Positions 15,557 through 40,735 of a stretch of DNA of 40,735 nt are shown here, piece by piece. Source of the stretch: a virus; IMG/VR virus record IMGVR_UViG_3300021964_000167, positions 1 to 40,735 of that record; one strand, written 5' to 3'. The notes beneath the pieces were generated by a model. The model searched no databases. It was not told the origin of the DNA and worked only from the letters and a program-made list of their open reading frames with translations. Each line of letters opens with the position of its first letter. Positions within the stretch are counted from its first letter, which is position 1. A program made the position numbers and the translations under genes.

Positions 15557-16567
15557 TTAGCTTACGCCATTGATAACTGCGTGATACTCGGCAGGTCCTT
15601 TATCAAGACCAATTTCCATGTAGACACGCTTTGATACTGCGGCTGCATCATCATTGTCTGTATCCTCTACGAATACTCCGCCTTTTCCTGGGATGTTTAA
15701 GAAACAAACATCTAGGTAAGACATATCCAATACGAATGCTTGGTCAGCAGGAACATATTCGTTCACTGCAAGTCCAATGTTTCCGAATGGAGTAATGATT
15801 GTGTCAATGTTAACACCTGCAATGTTTCTATCTCTAGGCAATACTGCCATTTGATTAGAACCACTCTTAACAAGGTTTTGGTTCAAGTCAAGAACTGAAC
15901 CTGGTCTTGCGAAAAGTACAGGGTTAGCCATTGGGGCGCCTGCATCATACATTAATTTTAATGTCTCAGCAAGAGCATCAAAGTCAAGACCTTGAGCTGT
16001 TCCTGTTCCATCGCCATTTGTATCATGTGCGAAAGCTGATGAACCATTTCCGGTAGCTACCCATTCAGCGATGCCACGCATCTCTCTTGGGTTACCATCT
16101 GTTCCATCATTGAATGTAGCATTAAAGAATTCATACTCAACTTCTCTTGCGATTTTGCTAAGTAGTTCTTCTAATTGAAATGCCATTTCATCATTGATTG
16201 GGTTTTGCCCTTCAAAAGCTTTTGTTCCGGTTTCCATAGCTTGTGAGTTCAAATAGCCTGTTGATGCCATTGCGGAATAGGTAAGTTTAATACCTTGGTT
16301 CCAAATTTGCACACAGTCTATTGCAGAACTTCTGCTTCTACCAAAGTAAGCAGGTGTTCCACCTTCAGCAACTGCTGTATAAGAGTTGACTGTAGGGGTA
16401 TCTACTTTTTGGGTTTGGAAAACAGGAGAGTTAAGAAGTTTACCACCATTTAAACCACCAACCATTGATAGTAATGGGGTCCTTCTTGCTCCAACTTTAA
16501 AGAGTTCACCTGTAAAGTTATTAATCTCAGATACTGAGATTGGGTCTGGTGAGCCTATAGCTGCCAT
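15557..16567 (-). CDS. Major capsid protein (336 aa)
   Basis: Length, position after a scaffold-like gene and composition fit a HK97-fold capsid protein. The opening (ISVSEINNFTGELFKVGARR, then TPLLSMVGG) and the later PVLFARPGSVLDLNQNLVKS and IAGVNIDTIITPFGNIGL resemble SU10-type/DUF5309 capsid proteins (recollection). The last motif matches the late beta-region of that family. TAGGAGAAAAAA precedes the ATG. Strong hairpins flank the gene on both sides, as expected for a very abundant product. Confidence 0.8.
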   Translation of the reverse strand: MAAIGSPDPISVSEINNFTGELFKVGARRTPLLSMVGGLNGGKLLNSPVFQTQKVDTPTVNSYTAVAEGGTPAYFGRSRSSAIDCVQIWNQGIKLTYSAMASTGYLNSQAMETGTKAFEGQNPINDEMAFQLEELLSKIAREVEYEFFNATFNDGTDGNPREMRGIAEWVATGNGSSAFAHDTNGDGTGTAQGLDFDALAETLKLMYDAGAPMANPVLFARPGSVLDLNQNLVKSGSNQMAVLPRDRNIAGVNIDTIITPFGNIGLAVNEYVPADQAFVLDMSYLDVCFLNIPGKGGVFVEDTDNDDAAAVSKRVYMEIGLDKGPAEYHAVINGVS

Positions 16568-24287: not shown

Positions 24288-27200
24288 TTAATCTCCTGTA
24301 TTCGCACTATTATTAGGGCTTATCTCATAGAATAGCACCTCATTAGCTAGCTGTGGGAAGTTAGTATCTTTACCTTTAGTTACCAAATCTTGCCAAATTA
24401 TTGTCATAATCTCTCTAGCTCTTACTGGTGCTTCGCTTACACCATTTAATGTTCTTGATTTCTTAGTTGGGTTAAAGACATACATAGTCTCACCCTTATA
24501 AGTAAAACTTCCTCCATCTAATAATACATCAATAATTTGATTTCTGTAATCTAAGTACTCAGTTAATATTGGATACTCCGGACTTTGTCTTGTCTCTTCA
24601 TAGTCCACCCATCTATCAAGTTCTGCATATAACTCTCTTGTTGTTGCAGATTTTGGTTTACCTTGGAAGTTAAATAAATCAAATCCATAATCTTCTTCTA
24701 TTTCTGCTTTAAGATTTGATATCTGTTCTTTTTGTAAACTATCCGGAACATTTTCTTTGATATCTCTTTTACCTTTTTCATACTCATAAATAGCTTGACT
24801 GTGTCTCATAAAGTTACCAAACTCTTCCAGTTGTAGTCCTTGACTTCTTGTTTCATAATATGCAGGCCAAAACAATTCGTCTTCTACTTTATCCGGATAA
24901 ATATAATAAGCAGTGTTAGGTAACGCATCAGCTTCTAATAATCTTTTTCTATCATCTTCTTGCCACCAAAAGAATGCATTTTCTTTTACAGGTTGTTTAC
25001 CAATTTTATAAGAGCTAGCTTGTTTCAATGGTATAGGGTTAATACCAAACTTTTCTATAAACTCTTCTTGTGTAGCAAAGTTGTCATAACCATTTTTAAT
25101 TAACATTTCTTGATATTTATTTACTAATACTTGTGTTCCCCACCATTCACCATTTTTATCTTCAACTTCTATTCTTGGTTGTACTGCAGTAGGTAATGAG
25201 AATTGTGCCATACCTCGTATGACATAAACATTTCTTGCTTGTTCTAATGCCCTATCTATAAATTTGTTAACTTCTAGTTGGTCACTTTGGTCAACTAATC
25301 CTGCAAGTACATAAGAACTGTATAAATCCATTGCTGTTGTGGCAAATGCATTTTGTAAATCTGTATCCGGTGAGCCTTCCCAAGTTAAAAACTTTTTAGC
25401 CCATGCAGGTAATTGGTCTGATAACTGGCCGGAACTCTCAAACTCTCCTAAGAAAAACTTACGAGCAGATTGTGGCGCACCTATAGCATTTAAGAATATT
25501 CTCATTGGGAATGTTACTACTGGTCCAAATCCAGGAGCAAAACCATTCTGTGCAATTAAGTTAAGTCCCGATGCGTAACCAGGAGCTGTAGCTCGTATAC
25601 CTTCATCTTCTAAACTTTCTCCAAATACTGCTGTTTGGTAAGGTGAAGTAATAGCATCCGGTAAGTTTTCTTTAACTCCCGATGCACGAATAACACTACC
25701 CAATGCTTTAAACGAACCTAATGTGAGTATGTTAAATACATCAACATAGTTAAACATAAGTTTTCCTGTTGATGGGTCTTTCTCTAAGAAACCATTCTCA
25801 CTGTCCCAAGGTTTAGCTTCAGTACCATTGTCTACTGTTATTCTTGCTCTATTAAATTTTTGTGGGTTTTCTGTAATTAATTTACCCCATGATTGAAATA
25901 CCTCTGCCCATATCTCCGGGAAAGGAATGTATTTAGAAAATAAATCTGAAGCAACATGTCGTTGTGATACAGAATAGAATAATGTTTTTACTTCATTCAT
26001 AGCTGCAGTTTTTAATAACTCTTCTGCTTGTGGCAAGCTAGTAACAGTATTCTCTAATGATGGTTGTTTAGCAGCTTCAATTAATTCATCCCATAGTTTG
26101 TTACCATCAATCCAAGGTTCTGCACCTTTTAGGAACTTTGCTTTAGTTGCATCGTCCATATACTGTATAACCTCTATAGCATTTTCATAAAAGGCATATC
26201 TAAATAATGGGTCTCTGTTTAAGTAGTTAGATGGTTTAGATATCAATGCATTGTATCCAGTTTCCAATAAACTGTTTAAAGCATCATTACCATATCTAAC
26301 ATCAGCTAAGTACCCTGCTGCTTGTATCTCTTCACCAACAATCATTGTTCCGCTTTCAGATATTCTACTTTGTAGGTCAAATCTTCTTGGTAATACTTTA
26401 GGCCCTAAATCTTGTGCATCTACTTCTTGTTTAAACAGCTTGATAAATTGTTTGTAAAATTCTTGATTGTTTGTTCCTCGTTCTTTTAATTTAAATGTTT
26501 GGATATGTGTCTTGTATCGTAACCAATCTTTATTATCCATGACACCACCATTTTTAATAAACTGGAATATCTTTGTATTAGAACCTACAGACATATCAGC
26601 AACATACTTAGGATATTGTTTTTGTCCATTTTGATACCAAACTCTTGTAGCAAGTTCTGCTGATAATTCGTTACCTGTTCTTGGGTCTATTATCTTAGCA
26701 GTAGGATTTCCTACAGTTTGTGCAACTCTGTATTGGAGACTTTCTAAATATTCTCTTAACGCTTTGTCACTTTGTAAATATAATCTATCTTCCGGATTAA
26801 AACTTCTAGCAACTAATTCTTCTAAAGTTTCTTTTCCTTCACCTCTAAGATATATCATTGTGTCATCGATACCTTTATTAACAAGTGGAACGACTATTGG
26901 GTCTGATGCAAGTAAGTACATTTCTTCCCACAATGCTTCCCAGTATCTAGGGTTAATGTTTCCAGTAGGTAAATACTTATCAACACTAATCATTAAGTTC
27001 TCTGCTAAATCTTTTCTTCCATCAAGTAATCCTCTAGTAATAGCGGCTTCACCCATAGATGCCATGTAACTTTCATCTGTACTAAATAAACTTCCTCCAG
27101 GCATACCTTTAGCAGCACCTTTTACTTCTTCAACTGTTAGACCTAATGCATCAAAGTTAGATTTAAACATTGCTTCCATAGTTGGTTTATTAAGAACTGT

Positions 27201-30200
27201 GTCTATATTTATATCTGCTGCAGTTTTAAAACCATCTCCTTTAGCTTTGCTGTATAGATAAATTAAATTATTATCCATTAGTGGTTTACCAAATCCTGTT
27301 TTTTCTGCAAGCTCTCTATTAGCGATATATACACTTTCTTGAAATGAGTTAGCTCCAATGTATACAGCATTAGCTACAGCATTTTCACCTTGCAATGCAA
27401 CAGATACATCAATGATAAAGTTTCCTGCATCATCTTGATAGGTTCCTATAACATGACTTTGCTTAGACAACAGGCCAATAGTGTCATCATCTAAAAACAC
27501 ATTGTCTATTTGTTGGTCTATATATTCTGCAGGGCTTATGTTAAGTTCTTTTGCTTTTGTTTCGATATCTCCAAGTTGACCTAAGCTAAACTCTTTATCT
27601 TTATAAGGTGATACGAATGCATCTCCTTCTGCAAGTTTTCTTGTTTGTAAGTCAATAAATTTTCTTTCATCTAAATCAGTAGTAAACCCACCGGATTTTA
27701 TAAATGCTTCACCCATAGAGTTATAAGTTACGCCATCAAATCCTTCTATACTTCCTTTAGCATTAGCTTTTATTTTTCTAGTTTTTGTTTTAAATGCTTG
27801 TTCAGTTAACTCTGCAAATCTTAAATCTCTCAAATCAAAATTATTAACTGCAGCATCAATAATGTAATCTGAAACAACACCTTGTGGATTTGTTTCTAGT
27901 AGATTTGTTTTTATTAACTTTTGTGACCTATTGTAATCTATAGCTTGAAATTGTCCTATATCTTCTACATCAATCATATTTTTTAAGAACTCAATATCAT
28001 CCGGACCCATTCTTGTAGTCATAACTATTTCACCTAAGTTGTTATACAACTGTGCTACTTCATTTGCTCTAACATCATTTCCAAATAGACCAAATTGTTT
28101 GTTTGAGTTTAAGGCCATTCTTTGAAATGGATGTGTAATAAAGTTTACTTTGTCACCGAATGCAGCACGCAAAGCTTCTTCGGGTGATATTCTCAACATA
28201 AGAGCAAGTCGTAACATCCAGGCAGGTTTTAATATTTTGTTTTGTACATTATCTAACATAGTTTCGATAGGGCCTTTTGGTTTTAAAGTAAGTCTGTTTC
28301 CGGATACATTATCTAACAATGCTTTTCTAGGAACTTTTAAAAAGTCAGTCCAGTTAAAATCTTCTGCTAGATTTTTGGGTTTATCTGCCCATGCTCTTAA
28401 TCGACTATCTGTAGGTCCAATTAGTGTTTGATGAGCTTTAGTTGCTTGTACTACATCTTGTGGGTCTACGATTGTTGAAAATGTTGAACCTGCTTGTGAC
28501 AACATGTGCATGCTAGGTACTGCTTCAAAGATAAACTCTTCTATTTTGTCAATGTCATACTCAATACCTAAACTTTGAAAATGTCCTTCTAAGTCATCAA
28601 TAATTCTTTTGTATTTCTTTTTTACTTTTACACCATTAAAAGATAATGAACCACCAGTAGTACCTTTAAAATAACTTCTTAGTTCTTCCATTTCTGCGCC
28701 AAAGTTTTCTTGTTGTTTAATTAGACTTTCAACATCTACTAACAAGTTAGGGTTTTGTTCACCAACTGAACGAGCAATAGTCTGATTAACTCTGTTTACA
28801 ATATCATCTAGCTCTGATTGTGATTTTGCAGCTAATGTTTCTTGTGCATATTTACCTCTAGTCTTACTATCAACAAATGCATTCTTTAAGTTTGTATCTA
28901 TGTTCCAGGCTGTTTCATCTAGTTGACTAATGATTGCTGTAGTTTGTGGTCTTAGTGACATAGCTCTTTGCATGTGTTTTGGTAATGACATACGCAACTG
29001 TGCGCCAACACCAAGCAATCCTTTAGCAGGTTGTGATGATTGAAACATCCCTACAAATTTTCTTATAGGTGCAACATCTGTACTTTGACCAGTAATTAAT
29101 TTACCAACAAAGTTAAAGAATTCACCAGTCACTGTAGGTTTAGCAGGCAATGCTCCTAGACCAAAGTTTTTATTATTCTTAGTTAATTCTCTAGCTCTAT
29201 CAAGTTCTATTTGTGTTTTCTTAGGTACATAAGATTTAATCATTGTAAACATATTGTCTAATTGTGTATCAGTTAAATTACCACCTTTAGCAACAACATC
29301 AAGTACATCCCATACATGTATAGGGTCATCTACTTCTAGAAGTACTTTCTTTACTGACATAGGAATATTTCTAAATTCCGGAATATCATTTAAGAAAGAC
29401 ATACCTTCATCACCGCTAAGTTTTGCTATTGCTTCTCCAAATTTTTGTCCCCATCCTGTAGCTCTAACATCATCTAATGTTCTACCATAAAAAATAGCTC
29501 TATTTTGTTTACCTGTTTTTCCTGGCAAAAATGTTTTAAATAATTGTTTAGATAATTGTGTAGCATCATCAGTAGCTTTTAATGCTTTAGTATTAGCACT
29601 TACCATTGTTCTCATTGCATTTTTTACACCTGCACCATAAGCAAGGCCTAGGTTTACTGGGTCTGCTGCAACTCTAAAGACACCATCAATAACACCGGAG
29701 ACAACACTGTATCCTGTGGAACCTGGCTCTAACATTTGTGCAGCAACTATTCGTCCAGGAGATATGTCTATCTCTTCTCCAGTTTTTGTTTGATATTTAA
29801 ATTGGTCTTCTCTTTTATCAAACACTTCTGTAATCGGCGCACCATAAATATCTGTAGCTCTTGTCATTGCGGTTCTCTCGTCAGAACCTTTTCTTATTTC
29901 ATCAAGATAAGTTTGTGTCTGTCTTAAATCTATTGAAGATGGTAAATAACCAGTACCTAAGTTAAGAGGTTTTCCTTTCTTTATTTGTTGCAAAGCTAGA
30001 TTAAGTTCTGTAGGTCCATATTTTTGTCTTGCATTTATAAATGCTTCACCAACACTAGGATTAAATACATTGCTTAAAAAATTAGCTGTCGTGCTACCTT
30101 CTTGTCCTGGAGTTTGATTAACAAAAGTTTCAGCTAAACCACCTAATGTAGCACCTGCTACTGTAAGTGGAACTGATTGTCCAGTCTCTTGTGCAGCAAC

Positions 30201-30575
30201 TACTGCAGATTTAAAACCTCTTGATATAGGTTGGAATGCAGCATCTAATGCAAGCATACCTAACTGTACACCTCGTTTAAAAGGATTTACTTTAGTAACA
30301 ATTTTCTGTTCATACTTCTTTGCAAGTATCTCTTGATTTCTTTGAGCTAATTGCAAAGCTATGTCATCTTCAGGATTTAAACCTGTTAATGCTGAATATA
30401 GTACCATCTGTGGCGGTAGGGTAGGGTAGGCTTTACCCATGTTAGCTATTCGTTGTTGTAATTCTAGGTTGGTTTCTTGCGTTCCCTGTTTGTAAGAGTT
30501 TACCCTATTGAGCGTATCTTCTGCATGTGCAATAGCGAGGTCCATTGCAGAAAATGATATACCATTAGACCGCAT
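24288..30575 (-). CDS. Giant internal/ejection protein (2095 aa)
   Basis: This gene takes up about 15% of the window. The product is mostly helical with several hydrophobic stretches, for example RGVQLGMLALDAAFQP and VPLTVAGATLGGLAETF near residues 105-160, and YSVVSGVIDGVFRVAADPVN around 290. I see no polymerase, transglycosylase, peptidase or helicase motif. Compared with T7 gp16 (about 1300 residues) it is very long. It overlaps the upstream gene by 11 bases. The most likely role is a DNA-ejection or internal core protein. Virion RNA polymerase, as in N4, is unlikely without motif support. An in-frame GTTTAAAC (KLFKQE) lies at 26429-26436. Confidence 0.7.
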   Translation of the reverse strand: MRSNGISFSAMDLAIAHAEDTLNRVNSYKQGTQETNLELQQRIANMGKAYPTLPPQMVLYSALTGLNPEDDIALQLAQRNQEILAKKYEQKIVTKVNPFKRGVQLGMLALDAAFQPISRGFKSAVVAAQETGQSVPLTVAGATLGGLAETFVNQTPGQEGSTTANFLSNVFNPSVGEAFINARQKYGPTELNLALQQIKKGKPLNLGTGYLPSSIDLRQTQTYLDEIRKGSDERTAMTRATDIYGAPITEVFDKREDQFKYQTKTGEEIDISPGRIVAAQMLEPGSTGYSVVSGVIDGVFRVAADPVNLGLAYGAGVKNAMRTMVSANTKALKATDDATQLSKQLFKTFLPGKTGKQNRAIFYGRTLDDVRATGWGQKFGEAIAKLSGDEGMSFLNDIPEFRNIPMSVKKVLLEVDDPIHVWDVLDVVAKGGNLTDTQLDNMFTMIKSYVPKKTQIELDRARELTKNNKNFGLGALPAKPTVTGEFFNFVGKLITGQSTDVAPIRKFVGMFQSSQPAKGLLGVGAQLRMSLPKHMQRAMSLRPQTTAIISQLDETAWNIDTNLKNAFVDSKTRGKYAQETLAAKSQSELDDIVNRVNQTIARSVGEQNPNLLVDVESLIKQQENFGAEMEELRSYFKGTTGGSLSFNGVKVKKKYKRIIDDLEGHFQSLGIEYDIDKIEEFIFEAVPSMHMLSQAGSTFSTIVDPQDVVQATKAHQTLIGPTDSRLRAWADKPKNLAEDFNWTDFLKVPRKALLDNVSGNRLTLKPKGPIETMLDNVQNKILKPAWMLRLALMLRISPEEALRAAFGDKVNFITHPFQRMALNSNKQFGLFGNDVRANEVAQLYNNLGEIVMTTRMGPDDIEFLKNMIDVEDIGQFQAIDYNRSQKLIKTNLLETNPQGVVSDYIIDAAVNNFDLRDLRFAELTEQAFKTKTRKIKANAKGSIEGFDGVTYNSMGEAFIKSGGFTTDLDERKFIDLQTRKLAEGDAFVSPYKDKEFSLGQLGDIETKAKELNISPAEYIDQQIDNVFLDDDTIGLLSKQSHVIGTYQDDAGNFIIDVSVALQGENAVANAVYIGANSFQESVYIANRELAEKTGFGKPLMDNNLIYLYSKAKGDGFKTAADINIDTVLNKPTMEAMFKSNFDALGLTVEEVKGAAKGMPGGSLFSTDESYMASMGEAAITRGLLDGRKDLAENLMISVDKYLPTGNINPRYWEALWEEMYLLASDPIVVPLVNKGIDDTMIYLRGEGKETLEELVARSFNPEDRLYLQSDKALREYLESLQYRVAQTVGNPTAKIIDPRTGNELSAELATRVWYQNGQKQYPKYVADMSVGSNTKIFQFIKNGGVMDNKDWLRYKTHIQTFKLKERGTNNQEFYKQFIKLFKQEVDAQDLGPKVLPRRFDLQSRISESGTMIVGEEIQAAGYLADVRYGNDALNSLLETGYNALISKPSNYLNRDPLFRYAFYENAIEVIQYMDDATKAKFLKGAEPWIDGNKLWDELIEAAKQPSLENTVTSLPQAEELLKTAAMNEVKTLFYSVSQRHVASDLFSKYIPFPEIWAEVFQSWGKLITENPQKFNRARITVDNGTEAKPWDSENGFLEKDPSTGKLMFNYVDVFNILTLGSFKALGSVIRASGVKENLPDAITSPYQTAVFGESLEDEGIRATAPGYASGLNLIAQNGFAPGFGPVVTFPMRIFLNAIGAPQSARKFFLGEFESSGQLSDQLPAWAKKFLTWEGSPDTDLQNAFATTAMDLYSSYVLAGLVDQSDQLEVNKFIDRALEQARNVYVIRGMAQFSLPTAVQPRIEVEDKNGEWWGTQVLVNKYQEMLIKNGYDNFATQEEFIEKFGINPIPLKQASSYKIGKQPVKENAFFWWQEDDRKRLLEADALPNTAYYIYPDKVEDELFWPAYYETRSQGLQLEEFGNFMRHSQAIYEYEKGKRDIKENVPDSLQKEQISNLKAEIEEDYGFDLFNFQGKPKSATTRELYAELDRWVDYEETRQSPEYPILTEYLDYRNQIIDVLLDGGSFTYKGETMYVFNPTKKSRTLNGVSEAPVRAREIMTIIWQDLVTKGKDTNFPQLANEVLFYEISPNNSANTGD

Positions 30576-31312: not shown

Positions 31313-33059
31313 CTTGTCCACCTCCTTGTGCTGCTGCTTGTGCAAGAACTTGTGCTAATCCCGGTGGAGGTCCTGCTTGCGGTCCTGCTTGTTGTTGACC
31401 TGCTTGGGCTAAGGCTACCTCTTCCGGTGTCATGTCGTCACCCTCAGGAGTATAGAACTTTTCTAGAATTGAATTCATGTTTTGAGGATTTTTCTTAATC
31501 TCAATTGCAGCCATAGTTGCTTTAGGGTTACCTTGTGCAGCTTGTGCCATAAGACTTTCAAACAAAACATTCTCTGCTCTCTCTGCATTAATTCTTGAAT
31601 TGATTTGTGATATGTTATCTAATCCATCCATGTTCTCTTGTAAAGTTTGTTTATCAATAATGCCTTGTTGTTTTAGCTGTAGGCCTGTAATAATCTTTTG
31701 TGGTTCATCGAACCCGGCCATAACACCATAAATTCTTCTTGTCTTATACATTTCTGCAATATCTTTACCAGGAACATAAGTCTCTTTAAAGGCTGTACCA
31801 TTTCTAAAACCTGCAATAGGTTTACGCATATTTGGGTACATGGTCTCATCCCACTCTAATCTCTTAGTGTCAATCTGTTCTAAAGCATCTTTAAGAATTA
31901 CTTGATATTCTCTTACATGCAATGATGCAGATTGTCCTAGTTCTTCTAATCCTCTACCAGTAACAAAAGCGTTAGGCGATTGTCCATCATCTGATACAGG
32001 ATATGCAGAACCTAAACGAAGATGTCTTTCTAGTCTATCTATCTGTTGGAACAGCTGATAGGGTAGATTGTTTGTTGGTTTAGATACCTGGCTTCCAGGT
32101 GTCAAGTAGTTAACTGACAATCGTCCTTTCTTATACTGTCCACTTTCTATCTCGCCAATGATGTTGGTTTCTGTAAACACAGCATCTTCCATTGCAATGA
32201 CAGATAGAACATTTATCTTCGCCATATTAGCCATCAAGCCTATAACATGATGGAATTGACCTTGCATTTGGTCAAAAGCAAATCTTTTAGCTACTACAAA
32301 TCTTGGTCCGGATTTAAGTGGGTTAGGAATAAAATCTAATATAACTTTGTTTTCCGGTAAGAAAATGTATGTACCTTCGTCATCATAGTATTCTGCTACA
32401 ACTTTACCTGTACCACTTTGATTAGCCCAGGTTTTGTCATAACTTGACATGTAAGCCATTGTATTATATTCAGCATCAATCTCATCTAAGATAACATTCT
32501 TGTGATTTGGATACAGTTTAGCCAATGTCTCATGTGGAACTCTGTGTACAATAGCTAGTTCTTTAGGTTGTTGACCTTCGCCAAAATATCCAGGGTAACA
32601 AAGATAAGGGTCTTTTACTTCTGCATATGGATAAGGAACACCATTAGCATCTTTCTTTTCTTTTAATACCCATACAGCAAATCCATAACCAGGTAGCCAT
32701 CTACCAACTTGTGGTAATTGTAATTCTAATTTTTGTTGTTCATCATAAGCATGTACTATTCGTTCTAGTTTTTCTGCTCGTTTTGTAGCTCGTTCACTAT
32801 CTTTGTCATTAAAAATATCAATTTTTAAATCGGGCGCTCTACCTAGTTTTTGTGCAAATCTCTCCATAGCCGAATGTAACATGTTAGGTGCAGGTATTTG
32901 GTTATAATCCATATCACGCATTTGTTTACCAAGTAAAGCCTTGATACCATCAGCACCACCATTCATAATTGCTCTTATTTTATCTTTTTCTGAAATGACA
33001 TCTGCGTGTTGCGCTCTAAGCTCGTACACCCTGTTATATATTTCGTCTTCTGTTTTCAT
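31305..33059 (-). CDS. Portal protein (584 aa)
   Basis: Size and position right after the terminase fit. The sequence has the usual portal pattern: an N-terminal helical wing (NMLHSAMERFAQKLGRAPDL), a beta-rich stem region with VKDPYLCYPGYFGEG and AKRFAFDQMQGQ, a helical crown (FVTGRGLEELGQSASLHVRE), and a C-terminal Gln/Gly/Ala-rich tail. I choose ATG 33059, which overlaps the terminase stop as TAATG; an in-frame TTG lies nine bases upstream. The portal forms the dodecameric DNA gate of the head. Confidence 0.85.
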   Translation of the reverse strand: MKTEDEIYNRVYELRAQHADVISEKDKIRAIMNGGADGIKALLGKQMRDMDYNQIPAPNMLHSAMERFAQKLGRAPDLKIDIFNDKDSERATKRAEKLERIVHAYDEQQKLELQLPQVGRWLPGYGFAVWVLKEKKDANGVPYPYAEVKDPYLCYPGYFGEGQQPKELAIVHRVPHETLAKLYPNHKNVILDEIDAEYNTMAYMSSYDKTWANQSGTGKVVAEYYDDEGTYIFLPENKVILDFIPNPLKSGPRFVVAKRFAFDQMQGQFHHVIGLMANMAKINVLSVIAMEDAVFTETNIIGEIESGQYKKGRLSVNYLTPGSQVSKPTNNLPYQLFQQIDRLERHLRLGSAYPVSDDGQSPNAFVTGRGLEELGQSASLHVREYQVILKDALEQIDTKRLEWDETMYPNMRKPIAGFRNGTAFKETYVPGKDIAEMYKTRRIYGVMAGFDEPQKIITGLQLKQQGIIDKQTLQENMDGLDNISQINSRINAERAENVLFESLMAQAAQGNPKATMAAIEIKKNPQNMNSILEKFYTPEGDDMTPEEVALAQAGQQQAGPQAGPPPGLAQVLAQAAAQGGGQGG

Positions 33060-34975
33060 TATCTCCAACTATCTAAATCTATATCACTACCTGCATATCC
33101 ACCAAAAGATGGCTCATATTCAAGTCCCATTGTAGCAAGTCTTTCCTTCTGAAGTCTACGAATAGTTTTCATTGGGAACCAACTAGCCATTACTAAGTCA
33201 GACTTTTGTCCAACACTTCTGCTTTTATTCTGTGCAGAACTGAAATACACTAACTGACTTTTATATAAGTTTACCTTTTCTTGGGCCTCAAAGCCAAGAT
33301 ATGGCAAAGAAATTAATTTTTGTTCAAACAATGGTCTCATTGCTGTAACACCAAATATCGGGTCGTGTTTATTAGAATAAGTCTGCGTTCCTTCTAAGAA
33401 GACACCATGTTTACCTGCAAACTCTCTAATAGATTGGTCTTGTCTAATTGCACGCTGAAAACCATTCTCTTCAATAACCCAATGAGAGAGATTGTATTTC
33501 ACAAACCATTCTTTAATTATTTTAAGTGCTTGTGGAATACCACCTCCAAGTGAGTTCTCCATATCAATCATATACAATTTGTTAGATGCCTGGTCATAAC
33601 CCCATAAGAATGCAGCTTGATATCCGACTGATGCCGGGTCAAGTCCTGCAATTAACCTAACTCCTGCAGGTACCTGCCCAATTTCTCTACTTTGGTCTCG
33701 ACATGCTTCTATTTCTACGCTGTCGAATAAAGCCATACCATCAGGCATAGCAACATTAAGATAAACCATTTCGTAAATTGCTCTACCACCAGTAGTCTCT
33801 GCAGCAGACTTTCTACCCATTAACCATTTGTAAGTTCTTTTGTTTGCCCACAACATACAGTCCTGGTGAGCTTCATCATTCCAGTCGGGTAAGGTACATC
33901 CTGTATCGTGTGCCTCTTCTACTATCGTATTCCAACTTTCGTTGTCTAGTAGATGAGAATATAAATCGTCATAGTGTTGCCTGGAGCCAATAACAATTAA
34001 AGCTGTGTGTTCCTCTTTTCGAGAAGATAGTGTTGTTGTCCACCAAGTTCTTGTGTTCTCTCTTGATGCAGGTTGCATTGTAGAAGAGTGGTCCTCTAAG
34101 TCATCGCCTATGATAATATCACAATCTCGTGAAAGAATTTTTCCACCCCGACCGATACCAACCATGGTAGGAGACTTAATCCCGGTAACAGTACGAGTGC
34201 CAACAGTAAACCCACTCTGCGACCACGCTTTTCCTGCTCTGCTAGTTGGTTTAAAACTCTTTCCAGGTGGGCAGAGTTCTTCGATAAGTTTTTCATTGTT
34301 CTCTAACTGGTCTATTACTGAAGCGACAGCATTCTTAGATATCTCTTCATTACCACCTACCCACAATATTCTAACATTAGGGTTCTTGATTATGAGCCAT
34401 ACTGCGAAATGAATTAGTAGGTCAGTCTTGCCATGTCGTGGAGGAGATAGTATCATCTGCTGATTTCCATGTTCAATAGCTTCAAGAATAGATTTAATCC
34501 ATCTAATGTGAAACTCCGGAGTTTGATATGGTTCACCAGTCTCTGTTTGAAAATATCTATCTCTAAAAATTTTAAAGTCAGCTAATGACTTCTCTGCTTT
34601 AGCAGGTAAAGTCCAGTTCTCTGCTTTTTCTTTTGTCTCCATATCTTCTATCCATGCAGCATACGCATAAGATAGAGCAGCTTTTGTACAGCCTAAGATT
34701 TCTGCAGCGTCTTGTTTTTTTAAATCACCTTTAAGAATAAGGGGTCCTAAGTTTTTTTCTACAAGAGCATCATATACGACACCTCTTCTTTTTTGTACAT
34801 TAGGTTGTGCTACAGGTTTACCATCATGTTCAGGTTCATAAACTGCACCTTGTTGTTGTGCGTAATATTTTTTATTGTGATATGCTTTTGAGCATTTTGG
34901 TGAACAAAATTTTCTTGCAGGTGCTTTTAAAACATTATGACACGATTGTGCAAAACATACTTTTACTTTACTCAT
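33059..34975 (-). CDS. terL: Terminase large subunit with N-terminal zinc finger and HTH
   Basis: Walker A is SPPRHGKT (residues 177-184), Walker B is DIIIGDDLE (286-294), and the RNase H-like nuclease carries LDPAS (Asp446), IEENG (Glu502/503) and SDLVM (Asp593). It therefore has both the ATPase and the nuclease needed for packaging. Residues 1-35 hold four Cys (7, 12, 24, 28), a zinc-finger-like module. Residues about 82-108 (DLKKQDAAEILGCTKAALSY) look like a helix-turn-helix of small-terminase type. No separate small terminase is visible, so DNA recognition may be built in. Confidence 0.93.
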   Translation of the reverse strand: MSKVKVCFAQSCHNVLKAPARKFCSPKCSKAYHNKKYYAQQQGAVYEPEHDGKPVAQPNVQKRRGVVYDALVEKNLGPLILKGDLKKQDAAEILGCTKAALSYAYAAWIEDMETKEKAENWTLPAKAEKSLADFKIFRDRYFQTETGEPYQTPEFHIRWIKSILEAIEHGNQQMILSPPRHGKTDLLIHFAVWLIIKNPNVRILWVGGNEEISKNAVASVIDQLENNEKLIEELCPPGKSFKPTSRAGKAWSQSGFTVGTRTVTGIKSPTMVGIGRGGKILSRDCDIIIGDDLEDHSSTMQPASRENTRTWWTTTLSSRKEEHTALIVIGSRQHYDDLYSHLLDNESWNTIVEEAHDTGCTLPDWNDEAHQDCMLWANKRTYKWLMGRKSAAETTGGRAIYEMVYLNVAMPDGMALFDSVEIEACRDQSREIGQVPAGVRLIAGLDPASVGYQAAFLWGYDQASNKLYMIDMENSLGGGIPQALKIIKEWFVKYNLSHWVIEENGFQRAIRQDQSIREFAGKHGVFLEGTQTYSNKHDPIFGVTAMRPLFEQKLISLPYLGFEAQEKVNLYKSQLVYFSSAQNKSRSVGQKSDLVMASWFPMKTIRRLQKERLATMGLEYEPSFGGYAGSDIDLDSWR

Positions 34976-35981: not shown

Positions 35982-36081
35982 ATGTAAACTCCTGGCAGTT
36001 CTCACAGACACCATCCATTAACTGGTCAGCCCAATAAGGATGCAAACAAATATCACAATCCTCTACGCTTATATAATCCAT
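35980..36081 (-). CDS. Tiny zinc-finger protein (33 aa)
   Basis: The peptide contains EDCDICLHPYWADQL and GVCENCQEFT, two CxxC pairs 14 residues apart, typical of a zinc ribbon. There is no ribosome site, but an extended -10 element lies about six bases upstream of the ATG, so the mRNA could be leaderless. It is the first leftward gene of the control region and lies ahead of the terminator at 35737, so it may be expressed early and alone. Confidence 0.55.
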   Translation of the reverse strand: MDYISVEDCDICLHPYWADQLMDGVCENCQEFT

Positions 36082-36294: not shown

Positions 36295-36308
36295 TTTATG
36301 GTATAGTT
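36295..36308 (+). promoter_or_regulatory. Rightward 14-bp control element with extended -10
   Basis: TTTATGGTATAGTT again, on the plus strand, identical to the reverse complement of 36087-36100. TGG-TATAGT gives an extended -10. No gene follows within 1.1 kb, so any transcript would be a leader or non-coding RNA. Confidence 0.5.
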
Positions 36309-36324
36309 GAATTACACAAACACA

Positions 36325-36353
36325 TTAGATTGCAGACTTTTAGAACAATCTAA
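36325..36353. promoter_or_regulatory. Perfect 8-bp inverted repeat
   Basis: TTAGATTG (36325-36332) and CAATCTAA (36346-36353) surround 13 bases. It lies 17 bases after the rightward 14-mer, so it would be at the 5' end of a transcript from that site, or act as an operator. Confidence 0.5.
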
Positions 36354-36627
36354 TAGATAAGACATCAAGTAAGTGGATTAGTCTGACCATGGTAACTAGG
36401 GTAAAAGCCTATTATTCTACATATGTTATATAGCTACTATATGGAGTTATTCGGTTTGGGTTGGGAGTAGCACAGGGTAAGAACTACTTAACATCTTAAA
36501 TAAGTAATAACTTGCTAGTAAAGGAACACCACTATCTGTAGTGCGTTTTATATTAGTTAACAGCATATCTCTGAAGGGTACACTATATATACTAAGGTGG
36601 TTCACATTTAACCTCACCCCTTTATTT

Positions 36628-36970: not shown

Positions 36971-36999
36971 TTGACAAGTAAAGACATTCCCCCTATATT
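36971..36999 (+). promoter_or_regulatory. Near-consensus sigma-70-type rightward promoter
   Basis: TTGACA (36971-36976), a 17-base spacer, then TATATT (36994-36999). This is the best promoter by eye in the window, and it points at the rightward gene set beginning at 37454. A 10-bp direct repeat TTCCCCCTAT (36934-36943 and 36987-36996) overlaps its spacer and -10, a possible operator. Confidence 0.75.
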
Positions 37000-37005
37000 T
37001 AATAC

Positions 37006-37345
37006 TAACAAACACAGTAGAGAGGCCCTTAACTTTCACACAAATAGCTAAGGAAATGAGCGAGACAAGTACAGCTTAGAGGATGCAACTAAATACTCGG
37101 AAAGAGCCATAATGGCCCGAGATACCTACCCACTAAGCCCACCGGAGACACCTAGACACTCTTAACGATAAGGAGTTTTATCCGGCTCAGACCATCGAGA
37201 TTGGCCCGAAAAGCGTAAAACGACCTCATAAGCGAAAAAAGCCCTAATATGGAAGTAATTAGGGAATGGGAGACCTTATACAATTACTAGCACCCCGCAT
37301 TTCTTAGCTAAAACCTTTATTAGCTACCTTAGTTGGTAGCTTGTA
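37006..37345 (+). ncRNA. Candidate structured RNA or long leader
   Basis: Downstream of the 36971 promoter no frame is open for about 450 bases. The part 37021-37260 is about 45% G+C by my count, clearly richer than its A/T-rich flanks. Hairpins include CTCGG/CCGAG enclosing GCC/GGC (37096-37121), CCCTAAT/ATTAGGG (37242-37264) and AGCTACC/GGTAGCT (37322-37341); a further TCGGG/CCCGA stem lies at 37374-37392. It does not match tmRNA, RNase P, 6S or tRNA as I know them. It could be a regulatory RNA or the leader of the 37454 gene. Confidence 0.45.
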
Positions 37346-37453
37346 GCACATAATTATTAAGATTAGATAAGTATCGGGAAATTATAACCCGAAGATTTTA
37401 TACCTTAATTTGTGTGTTACAAGCTATTAATTAGCACTATATAAAGGAGAAAT

Positions 37454-37795
37454 ATGAATAACTTAGCAAATACTGGTGACGATTTAACTGGATTAATTGA
37501 CGATATTCGTAGAATTACAGACAATGACGATTTAAAAATTGTTTGGGATGCGATGCGAATTCAGTGGGATAGAAACGCTAGAGCAAAAGTAAAAACATTC
37601 AATGAATTAGACCTTGTAAATGTTCAATTCAAAGATGGTTCTTACAGATGCAGAGTTACAAAAGTTAATCAAAAGACTATCAATGTAACAATTCTAGAAG
37701 GCCCATGGAGAGGGCGAAAGGCTAGCAAAGTATATACAAGATTTGTTACCAAAGTTACCCAAGAAATGATAGACGCTGAAAAACAAAATATATAA
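37454..37795 (+). CDS. Early protein with SH3-like domain (113 aa)
   Basis: First rightward gene after the control region, with ATAAAGGAGAAAT before the ATG. Residues 1-45 are helical and acidic. Residues 50-95 (DLVNVQFKDGSYRCRVTKVN and the basic ILEGPWRGRKASKV) look like an SH3-like or KOW-like barrel that could bind nucleic acid or protein. Early expression from the strong promoter suggests a regulatory or host-takeover role. Its 3' end is followed by two strong hairpins. Confidence 0.75.
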   Translation: MNNLANTGDDLTGLIDDIRRITDNDDLKIVWDAMRIQWDRNARAKVKTFNELDLVNVQFKDGSYRCRVTKVNQKTINVTILEGPWRGRKASKVYTRFVTKVTQEMIDAEKQNI

Positions 37796-38267: not shown

Positions 38268-38275
38268 CTATCTAG

Positions 38276-38351
38276 AAGGCATTGTTTAAACAGTGCCTTT
38301 TATGATAGCTATAACAAGCTATTCAATAGGAGTTGGCATATATCCTATGCC
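38276..38351 (+). terminator. Palindrome-centred hairpin and two further stems
   Basis: A 24-base inverted repeat (38276-38299) has GTTTAAAC at its exact centre: AAGGCATTGTTT against AAACAGTGCCTT, one G-T pair, followed by TTTAT. ATAGCT/AGCTAT (38305-38322) and GGCATA/TATGCC (38335-38351) follow. The first looks like a terminator whose loop is the palindrome; the others may structure the 5' leader of the next gene. Confidence 0.6.
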
Positions 38352-39961: not shown

Positions 39962-40131
39962 TGACTAACACAGATACAATACATTCAGTTGCATTGGTGT
40001 ATGCACAAAAAACAGGTAAAGAATTACAGATTACTAATAGTTTAATTAGAAATATGCAAAATGATTTATCTCAATTAGCAACTGAATACGCAGTCAATGA
40101 CACAGATAACTATTTTAAGGAGAAAGAATAA
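39961..40131 (+). CDS. Small unknown protein (56 aa), full-length version of the cut gene at 1-135
   Basis: Opens MTNTDTIHSVALVYAQKTGK; the shared 44 residues differ from the left copy at one position (KEKE here, KEEE there). Helical, no family recognised. Starts by TAATG overlap after GGAGGAAG, and ends with the same kind of junction. Confidence 0.75.
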   Translation: MTNTDTIHSVALVYAQKTGKELQITNSLIRNMQNDLSQLATEYAVNDTDNYFKEKE

Positions 40132-40277
40132 TGGTTTGGAAAGTAATTGACTTAAGCGAAGAAAGACAACAAACATATTGTACAAGTTGCAACAAGATAA
40201 CTAATTCTAGTAGAGCAGATTATCAAAGTGAGTTTACTTGTAACGATTGTGGAGCAGAAGTACAGGAGGAAGAATAA
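40131..40277 (+). CDS. Zinc-ribbon-like early protein (48 aa)
   Basis: Contains TYCTSCNKI and FTCNDCGAEV, two CxxC pairs about 20 residues apart, typical of a single zinc ribbon. Starts by TAATG overlap and ends VQEEE with the GGAGGAAG junction. It replaces the unrelated 135-347 gene of the left copy. Could be a small transcription-machinery binder; this is not shown by sequence. Confidence 0.7.
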   Translation: MVWKVIDLSEERQQTYCTSCNKITNSSRADYQSEFTCNDCGAEVQEEE

Positions 40278-40402
40278 TGAAAAGACAACTTGAAATTATG
40301 ACAAAAAGATATAACTTTGTTGTTGATTTGTTAGATGAAGACCAACAAAGAACTTTACGACAATGGTATATAGATACAGGTGTAATCCAGGAGGAAGAAT
40401 AA
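40277..40402 (+). CDS. Unknown early protein (41 aa)
   Basis: Opens MKRQLEIMTKRYNFVVDLLD, helical, ends VIQEEE. TAATG overlaps on both sides and GGAGGAAG before its start. It replaces the 347-499 gene of the left copy. No family recognised. Confidence 0.65.
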   Translation: MKRQLEIMTKRYNFVVDLLDEDQQRTLRQWYIDTGVIQEEE

Positions 40403-40680
40403 TGAAACTATATTACTTAAAGTATACGCAAGAAAGCGAGGCATATGTCTCAGCAGACAGCGAAGAAGAGGCAGTACAAAAGATAACAGACTTCACCAGT
40501 AATGGTGGAGAGAATATGCACAACATTCGACTAAACGAATGTGGTTGGAGCGTTGAAGGTGAAGAAGGTGAACTTCTACCTATTGCAGAGAAACATCCTA
40601 ACGCACACTTCGACACGCATATTAATGAGTATGGTACTACATATCAGCAACAGGACCAAGACTTCCTGTTCTATAATTAA
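40402..40680 (+). CDS. Conserved early protein, counterpart of 502-780 (92 aa)
   Basis: Start at ATG 40402 by TAATG overlap after GGAGGAAG; the upstream ATG at 40363 lies inside the previous gene. Same length as the left copy and about ten substitutions, including LPIAEK for NEIKKD. Function unknown. Followed by the same hairpin as at 793-834. Confidence 0.8.
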   Translation: MKLYYLKYTQESEAYVSADSEEEAVQKITDFTSNGGENMHNIRLNECGWSVEGEEGELLPIAEKHPNAHFDTHINEYGTTYQQQDQDFLFYN

Positions 40681-40735
40681 CCCAACAGGGAAAGCCATTG
40701 GGTGGGTATGGTTGTTCAGCCTACCCACATGGCTG

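Follow-up and report, generated by a model that had tools for sequence, protein, structure and literature searches.

The window, by which we mean the whole stretch of DNA analysed, is a 40,735-base IMG/VR virus record of an uncultured marine phage. Leftward genes, including those for the terminase, capsid and tail, cover most of the window, and rightward genes run from 37454, where small unknown proteins come first and a SprT-like metallopeptidase is also encoded. The two gene sets are separated by approximately 1.4 kb without convincing genes. Within this divergent control region, on the + strand, lie two elements that we call RNA1 and RNA2. RNA1 has a conserved core at 37006-37299, composed of a 5' domain (37011-37239) and an exchangeable 3' module (37240-37299). 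RNA2 (36314-36480), which is predicted to be pseudoknotted, lies upstream and is followed by a conserved tail at about 36556-36620. The first early gene behind RNA1 (37454-37795, +) encodes a 113-aa protein of no known family, and relatives carry other genes at this position.

Promoter and gene-free region

A promoter on the + strand at 36971-36999, consisting of TTGACA (36971-36976), a 17-base spacer and TATATT (36994-36999), matches the consensus at 11 of 12 positions and has the best score among the 10 candidates in the region. The preliminary description of this DNA had recognised it as near-consensus. Almost all relatives retain the element, with TTGGCA/TAAAGT in one lineage. Transcription is expected to start near 37006, and RNA1 itself would be transcribed from this promoter. 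The region behind it had been described as a G+C-rich island free of genes. The segment 37021-37260 is indeed 45.0% G+C, compared with 35.7% for the whole window, which places it above 98.6% of all 240-base windows, and 37006-37453 contains no + strand open reading frame of at least 50 aa. A protein-coding or leader-peptide reading is ruled out by single-base insertions and deletions among the relatives. When the segment 37006-37440 was folded, the + strand gave z = -4.5, with none of 100 shuffles as stable, and the - strand gave z = -2.7.

Relatives of RNA1 and an independent covariance model

Relatives were gathered by means of the protein encoded behind the region (six related contigs), DNA patterns, the terminase and the SprT-like protein, and all of them are metagenomic viral contigs. 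Already in an alignment of the leaders from the first six contigs, there were blocks that differ in sequence yet still pair. The first DNA-pattern matches L009, L011, L012, L016-L018, L020 and others proved to be chance matches in unrelated contigs. RNA1 is present in 75 of the 295 loci of the final set, several of which are overlapping pieces of one contig. These yield 22 distinct near-full sequences, whose identity to the window over 37011-37239 ranges from 52 to 100%. Within the loci searched, RNA1 always occupies the head of the early operon and was found nowhere else; wherever both RNAs are present (71 loci), RNA1 lies on the same strand as RNA2 and 641-791 bases downstream of it. RNA1 is absent from related phages that also carry the SprT-like early gene. 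No diverged copies of RNA1 were detected in the phages without it by profile, descriptor or covariance model, and no RNA1-like DNA was found in GenBank phages or PLSDB plasmids.

A covariance model was built from eight sequences of other lineages, leaving out the window and its near relatives. With this model the window is recovered at 37011-37239, scoring 76.6 bits (E 1.2e-18), and the E values of the most distant lineages range from 1e-13 to 1e-5. No RNA1 is detected in the related phages lacking the RNA; the best other match has E 0.09. Stripped of base pairs, the same model gives the window 49.8 bits and fails to detect two relatives; thus, approximately 27 bits of the full score come from structure. 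A search of the window and eight relatives with Rfam 15 at gathering thresholds gave no match to any family, including GOLLD, ROOL, pRNA, 6S, tmRNA, RNase P and riboswitches, and permissive scans returned chance-level matches alone. No tRNA or tmRNA genes were found in the window. The preliminary description, which could not match the region to tmRNA, tRNA, 6S, RNase P or a known riboswitch, had proposed an undescribed structured RNA and had called for an Rfam search and a covariation model from related phages. That proposal is supported by base pairs kept through sequence change and by the want of an Rfam match even at relaxed thresholds; the relatives display the opposite of the free drift without base-pair conservation that had been named as evidence against it. 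RNA1 is, on these sequence comparisons, a previously undescribed class of structured phage RNA that would form the first ~290 bases of the early transcript.

Fold and covariation of RNA1

We are nearly certain, from the pattern of sequence change, that selection acts on 37006-37299 to maintain a + strand fold in which a 5' pseudoknot precedes a multi-branched domain with a long-range closing stem. The predicted H-type pseudoknot (37020-37053) is formed by P0 (37020-37024/37033-37037; GAGAG/CUUUC in the window) and P1 (37027-37031/37049-37053; CCUUA/UAAGG in the window), with an A-rich loop, AAAUAGC, between them. P0 retains 107 of 110 standard pairs through 8 distinct stems, including GAGAG/CUUUC, AGAUG/CAUCU, AGUUG/CAACU, AGAAG/CUUCU, AGAGG/CCUCU and GAGGG/CCUUC, and P1 retains 109 of 110 through 7 distinct stems, including CCUUA/UAAGG, CUUAG/CUAAG, CCAGG/CCUGG, CCGAG/CUCGG and CUAGG/CCUAG. 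The strands of both helices were assigned by hand, with re-dealing of the 3' strands among sequences as the control. The observed pairing was never reached in 2,000 such shuffles, whose maxima were 97 for P0 and 92 for P1. The loops of the pseudoknot measure 2-3, 1 and 10-12 bases in 21 of the 22 sequences, the exception being L199, in which a hairpin is inserted in loop 3.

The multi-branched domain spans 37056-37229 and is closed by a stem at 37056-37060/37225-37229 (AUGAG/CUCAU) that is paired at all five positions in each of the 22 sequences, with both-sided changes at four of the five pairs (AUGAG/CUCAU, AUCGG/CCGAU, GUGAG/CUCAC, GUGUU/AACAC and GUGGU/ACCAC). RNAalifold, run unguided on the unedited MAFFT alignment of the 22 sequences, predicts this closing stem and no other helix. 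All of its cells are paired (100%), and for the whole structure a control in which partners were slid by 1-3 columns gave far lower values. Only the closing stem emerges from the full alignment because the inner helices are misaligned between lineages, and a first count of P3 on the columns of alignment A1 failed for this reason too. On two subclades, RNAalifold unaided recovers most of the inner helices, predicting 40 and 48 pairs, 23 of them compensated in each case.

Within the closing stem, P2 (37075-37079/37133-37137; CUUAG/CUAAG) bounds the region 37075-37137 and encloses both CAACUAAAU (37086-37094), which is invariant but for one base in L015, and the hairpin P3 (37096-37121; CUCG/CGAG, with an inner GCC/GGC). 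Assigned by hand, P2 takes the form of 8 distinct stems in 13 relatives, all of its pairs being standard, and it is called in subclade A4 and partly in A3. P3 has 5 distinct outer stems with 69 of 70 standard pairs and is missing as a unit in seven relatives. The two-storey hairpin P4 (37142-37185; CCGGA/UCCGG, with an inner ACUCUU/AAGGAGU) is recovered in both subclade RNAalifold runs, and by hand assignment its 10 distinct stems in 22 sequences contain 118 of 118 standard pairs. The small hairpin P5 (37203-37215), likewise assigned by hand, has 5 distinct stems in 13 relatives with 39 of 39 standard pairs, and carries GNRA tetraloops in some of them. The 5' domain ends with AGCGAAAAA (37231-37239), a near-invariant single strand in which one base differs in L019 and which is otherwise the same in all 22 sequences.

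Pairing alone cannot tell RNA from single-stranded DNA, and the element might work as DNA, either as a folded single strand or as protein-binding inverted repeats. We regard this as very improbable. Among the hand-assigned helices read on the + strand, G-U pairs outnumber A-C by ~24 to 1, an excess that points to RNA on that strand; moreover, GNRA loops occur, a promoter reads into the element, and the + strand lies further below its shuffles than the - strand does.

Of the four stems singled out in the preliminary description, 37096-37121 is real and covaries, being P3, and 37242-37264 is real with compensating changes (CCCTAAT/ATTAGGG versus CCCCAAT/ATTGGGG). The other two fall outside the conserved core, in a separate leader hairpin, where 37322-37341 is real and 37374-37392 is lineage-specific. 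Similarly, the extent of about 450 bases has to be divided, because the conserved core ends near 37299, at CGCA, and a variable hairpin before the first gene takes up the remainder to about 37440. That description lacked the most diagnostic features, namely the 5' pseudoknot, the long-range closing stem and the second RNA upstream.

The 3' module, the leader hairpin and the first gene

The 3' module (37240-37299, +) is swapped as a block between relatives and ends in CGCA (37296-37299). At least four unrelated module types are found between AGCGAAAAA and CGCA, and their exchange does not follow that of the first gene: the same module is found in L010, L014 and L015, but the gene of L010 is different. 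CGCA could pair with GCG at 37232-37234; the GCG and CGC are invariant, and hence give no covariation signal.

Between RNA1 and the Shine-Dalgarno sequence lies a variable leader hairpin, or hairpins (37320-37433, +), with arms at 37335-37353/37410-37428 that form inverted repeat I1. A strong hairpin is present here in 19 of 20 leaders (z -3.3 to -7.5 versus shuffles), with sequences that are unrelated between lineages; in the twentieth, L054, the boundary set by the script fell inside an apparent hairpin. As a long stable hairpin between transcript units, the element has the form of an RNase III site, and it probably serves as a site of RNase III-type processing or of insulation. Phage T7 early leaders are RNase III-processed simple hairpins that lie between early units, directly upstream of genes. 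The hairpins described here are also directly upstream of genes, but the T7 sites are simple hairpins, whereas the putative site here stands behind a separate conserved structured RNA.

No intrinsic terminator or terminator-like site was found between RNA1 and the first gene in the window, and therefore RNA1 is probably continuous with the early message. This continuity with the leader of the first gene, in which the hairpins 37320-37341 and 37335-37428 overlap as alternatives, would suit an ordinary regulatory leader, such as a riboswitch, an attenuator or a translational control element, acting on the gene behind it. Such a role is nevertheless quite improbable for RNA1. Among relatives, the first gene behind the conserved RNA differs in at least seven ways (encoding 113, 67, 65, 48, 88 or 57 aa, or being the SprT-like gene itself), with no fixed association with a single gene or pathway, and the least conserved part is the hairpin at the 3' end, which would have to do the switching.

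Further hairpins are found among the early genes. Intergenic hairpins with TTTAAAC loops (for example, GGCATTGTTTAAACAGTGCC) recur between these genes across the group, at 38273-38302, in other early gaps and in L083, and some of them look like intrinsic terminators. Further along the early region of L056, L060, L064 and L054, at approximately 2.5-3.1 kb, sequences similar to the GGTAGCTTG..CAAGCTA leader hairpin are repeated in tandem on the strand that carries the RNA, a pattern that would fit the movement of small genes as hairpin-plus-gene cassettes.

RNA2 and the control region

RNA2 is preceded by an extended -10 element, TGGTATAGT (36299-36307, +), that is conserved across the phage group. 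Its predicted fold on the + strand comprises a 9-bp hairpin (36324-36332/36346-36354), a pseudoknot between the hairpin loop and downstream sequence (36333-36338/36380-36385) and a stem, GUAACUAG..CUAUUAU, around 36392-36415. The loop pairing is kept in the variants CAGACU/AGUCUG, CAGGCA/UGCCUG and CCUGCU/AGCAGG. In the RNA2 alignment (A2), 98.8% of cells are paired compared with 77.5% in shuffles, and 13 pairs have both-sided changes; the fold is also supported by RNAalifold. RNA2 is more widespread than RNA1: it is retained throughout the phage group, also where RNA1 is missing, and 83 viral-contig stretches contain its core motif exactly. It has no Rfam match, and no RNA2-like DNA was found in GenBank phages. 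Both RNAs begin with an ACAAAC-type leader and a pseudoknot near the expected transcript start.

In ColE1, RNA II is a long structured transcript that is made from a sigma-70 promoter in the control region and primes replication. RNA1, as a predicted transcript, is likewise long, structured and read from a sigma-70 promoter in a control region, and it might be part of the phage origin, its transcript serving as the primer from which the host machinery replicates the genome. The genes tested against Pfam or PHROGs include no recognisable replication protein (polymerase, helicase, primase or initiator), only an Erf/Rad52-type annealing protein and an exonuclease; the divergent control region sits at the GC-skew minimum and contains the conserved A-tract AGCGAAAAA. 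Nevertheless, we consider priming by RNA1 improbable, although it ranks ahead of the ordinary leader. RNA1 is absent from related phages that must replicate too, and RNA2, which is present there, would be the better candidate. Unlike a G-rich RNA favouring R-loops, RNA1 has a GC skew of about zero, and the skew in the window follows gene direction anyway. No DnaA boxes matching TTWTNCACA were found in the control region.

Possible functions of RNA1

The role that we rank first, as a tentative preference, is action in cis on the whole early operon and not on one gene, because in the loci searched RNA1 was found only at the operon head, no terminator belonging to it could be recognised, and it is not bound to any single gene. 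Its constant position and strand downstream of RNA2, its conserved promoter and the seven different first genes behind it favour such a role. RNA1 would fold as RNA polymerase leaves the promoter and would alter the elongating polymerase to permit read-through of the operon, in the manner of the nascent put RNA from phage HK022; alternatively, RNA1 may guard the 5' end of the early message. The downstream hairpin, as a probable RNase III-type processing or insulating site, would separate RNA1 from each first gene. Against antitermination, sense-strand terminator-like hairpins are enriched only in the lineage of the window and not in the other RNA1-bearing lineages. Furthermore, the absence of RNA1 from related phages carrying the SprT-like gene indicates that it is not universally needed.

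Located a short way behind an early promoter, the put RNA needs no dedicated protein factors to act on RNA polymerase (PMC9378689). Like put, RNA1 is structured, opens an early phage operon with a promoter directly in front of it and has no fixed partner gene. However, put is ~70 nt long with two stem-loops (PMC9378689), whereas RNA1, at ~290 nt, is about four times longer, pseudoknotted and multi-branched. RNA1 therefore shares the early-promoter position of put and departs from its size and two-stem-loop form; we saw no resemblance in sequence or fold and claim no homology.

Nearly as likely as action in cis is that RNA1 is a free trans-acting RNA, which would be cut from the early transcript at the hairpin behind it and would then either bind a host or phage target (RNA polymerase, the ribosome, a nuclease or a replication factor) or self-assemble, like the large ornate phage RNAs. 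The complex pseudoknotted fold with invariant single-stranded bases, the strong hairpin of lineage-unrelated sequence behind RNA1 in 19 of 20 leaders and the lack of a tie to any one downstream gene are all consistent with a free RNA, but RNA1 was never seen away from the operon head in the loci searched, it has no terminator of its own, and cleavage at the hairpin is putative. Large structured RNAs are known from phages, GOLLD and ROOL among them: many GOLLD RNAs are over 800 nt and ROOL is ~660 nt (PMC12286853). They are often near tRNA islands. RNA1 resembles these as a large elaborate structured RNA of phages and environmental samples, but the Rfam models of GOLLD and ROOL do not match it, and it is located at an early promoter in a window that has no tRNA gene.

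Taken with RNA2, the action of RNA1 may be part of a broader scheme, which we think rather unlikely, in which two tandem pseudoknotted RNAs, RNA2 group-wide and RNA1 in one clade, run takeover by directly targeting host RNA polymerase or replication, thereby substituting for regulatory and replication proteins that the genome seems to lack. Large, precisely folded phage RNAs of unexplained function represent an open problem, and RNA1 is a clean new example whose strong covariation, defined promoter, definable ends and naturally swapped modules make its structure and function directly testable. If RNA1 does act on RNA polymerase, it would be a second and more elaborate kind of RNA-only antiterminator. 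RNA2, kept far more widely in the same phages, may be equally important.

Other features of the genome

The ends of the record overlap, with 1-137 matching 39997-40133 at 99% and 492-835 matching 40392-40735 at 95%, and the sequence between the two overlapping end segments differs. A circularly permuted or terminally redundant genome of ~40 kb is probable, the record being an assembly of strain variants. A 2,095-aa virion-type protein without a PHROG match is encoded at 24288-30575 (-) and is very large for a phage of 40 kb. For the terminase (33059-34975, -) and the major capsid protein (15557-16567, -), the nearest cultured phages are actinobacteriophages, at 24-32% identity. A contig from a metagenome-assembled genome labelled Actinomycetota has a terminase with 53% identity, and the labels of other such terminase-bearing contigs conflict; a marine actinobacterial host is only a lead.

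In the control region, a 14-base perfect inverted repeat (36087-36100/36295-36308) consists of two divergent copies of TTTATGGTATAGTT. The leftward copy ends approximately 7 bases before a plausible ATG at 36079, an arrangement that would give a leaderless mRNA. Leaderless mRNAs are common in Actinobacteria.
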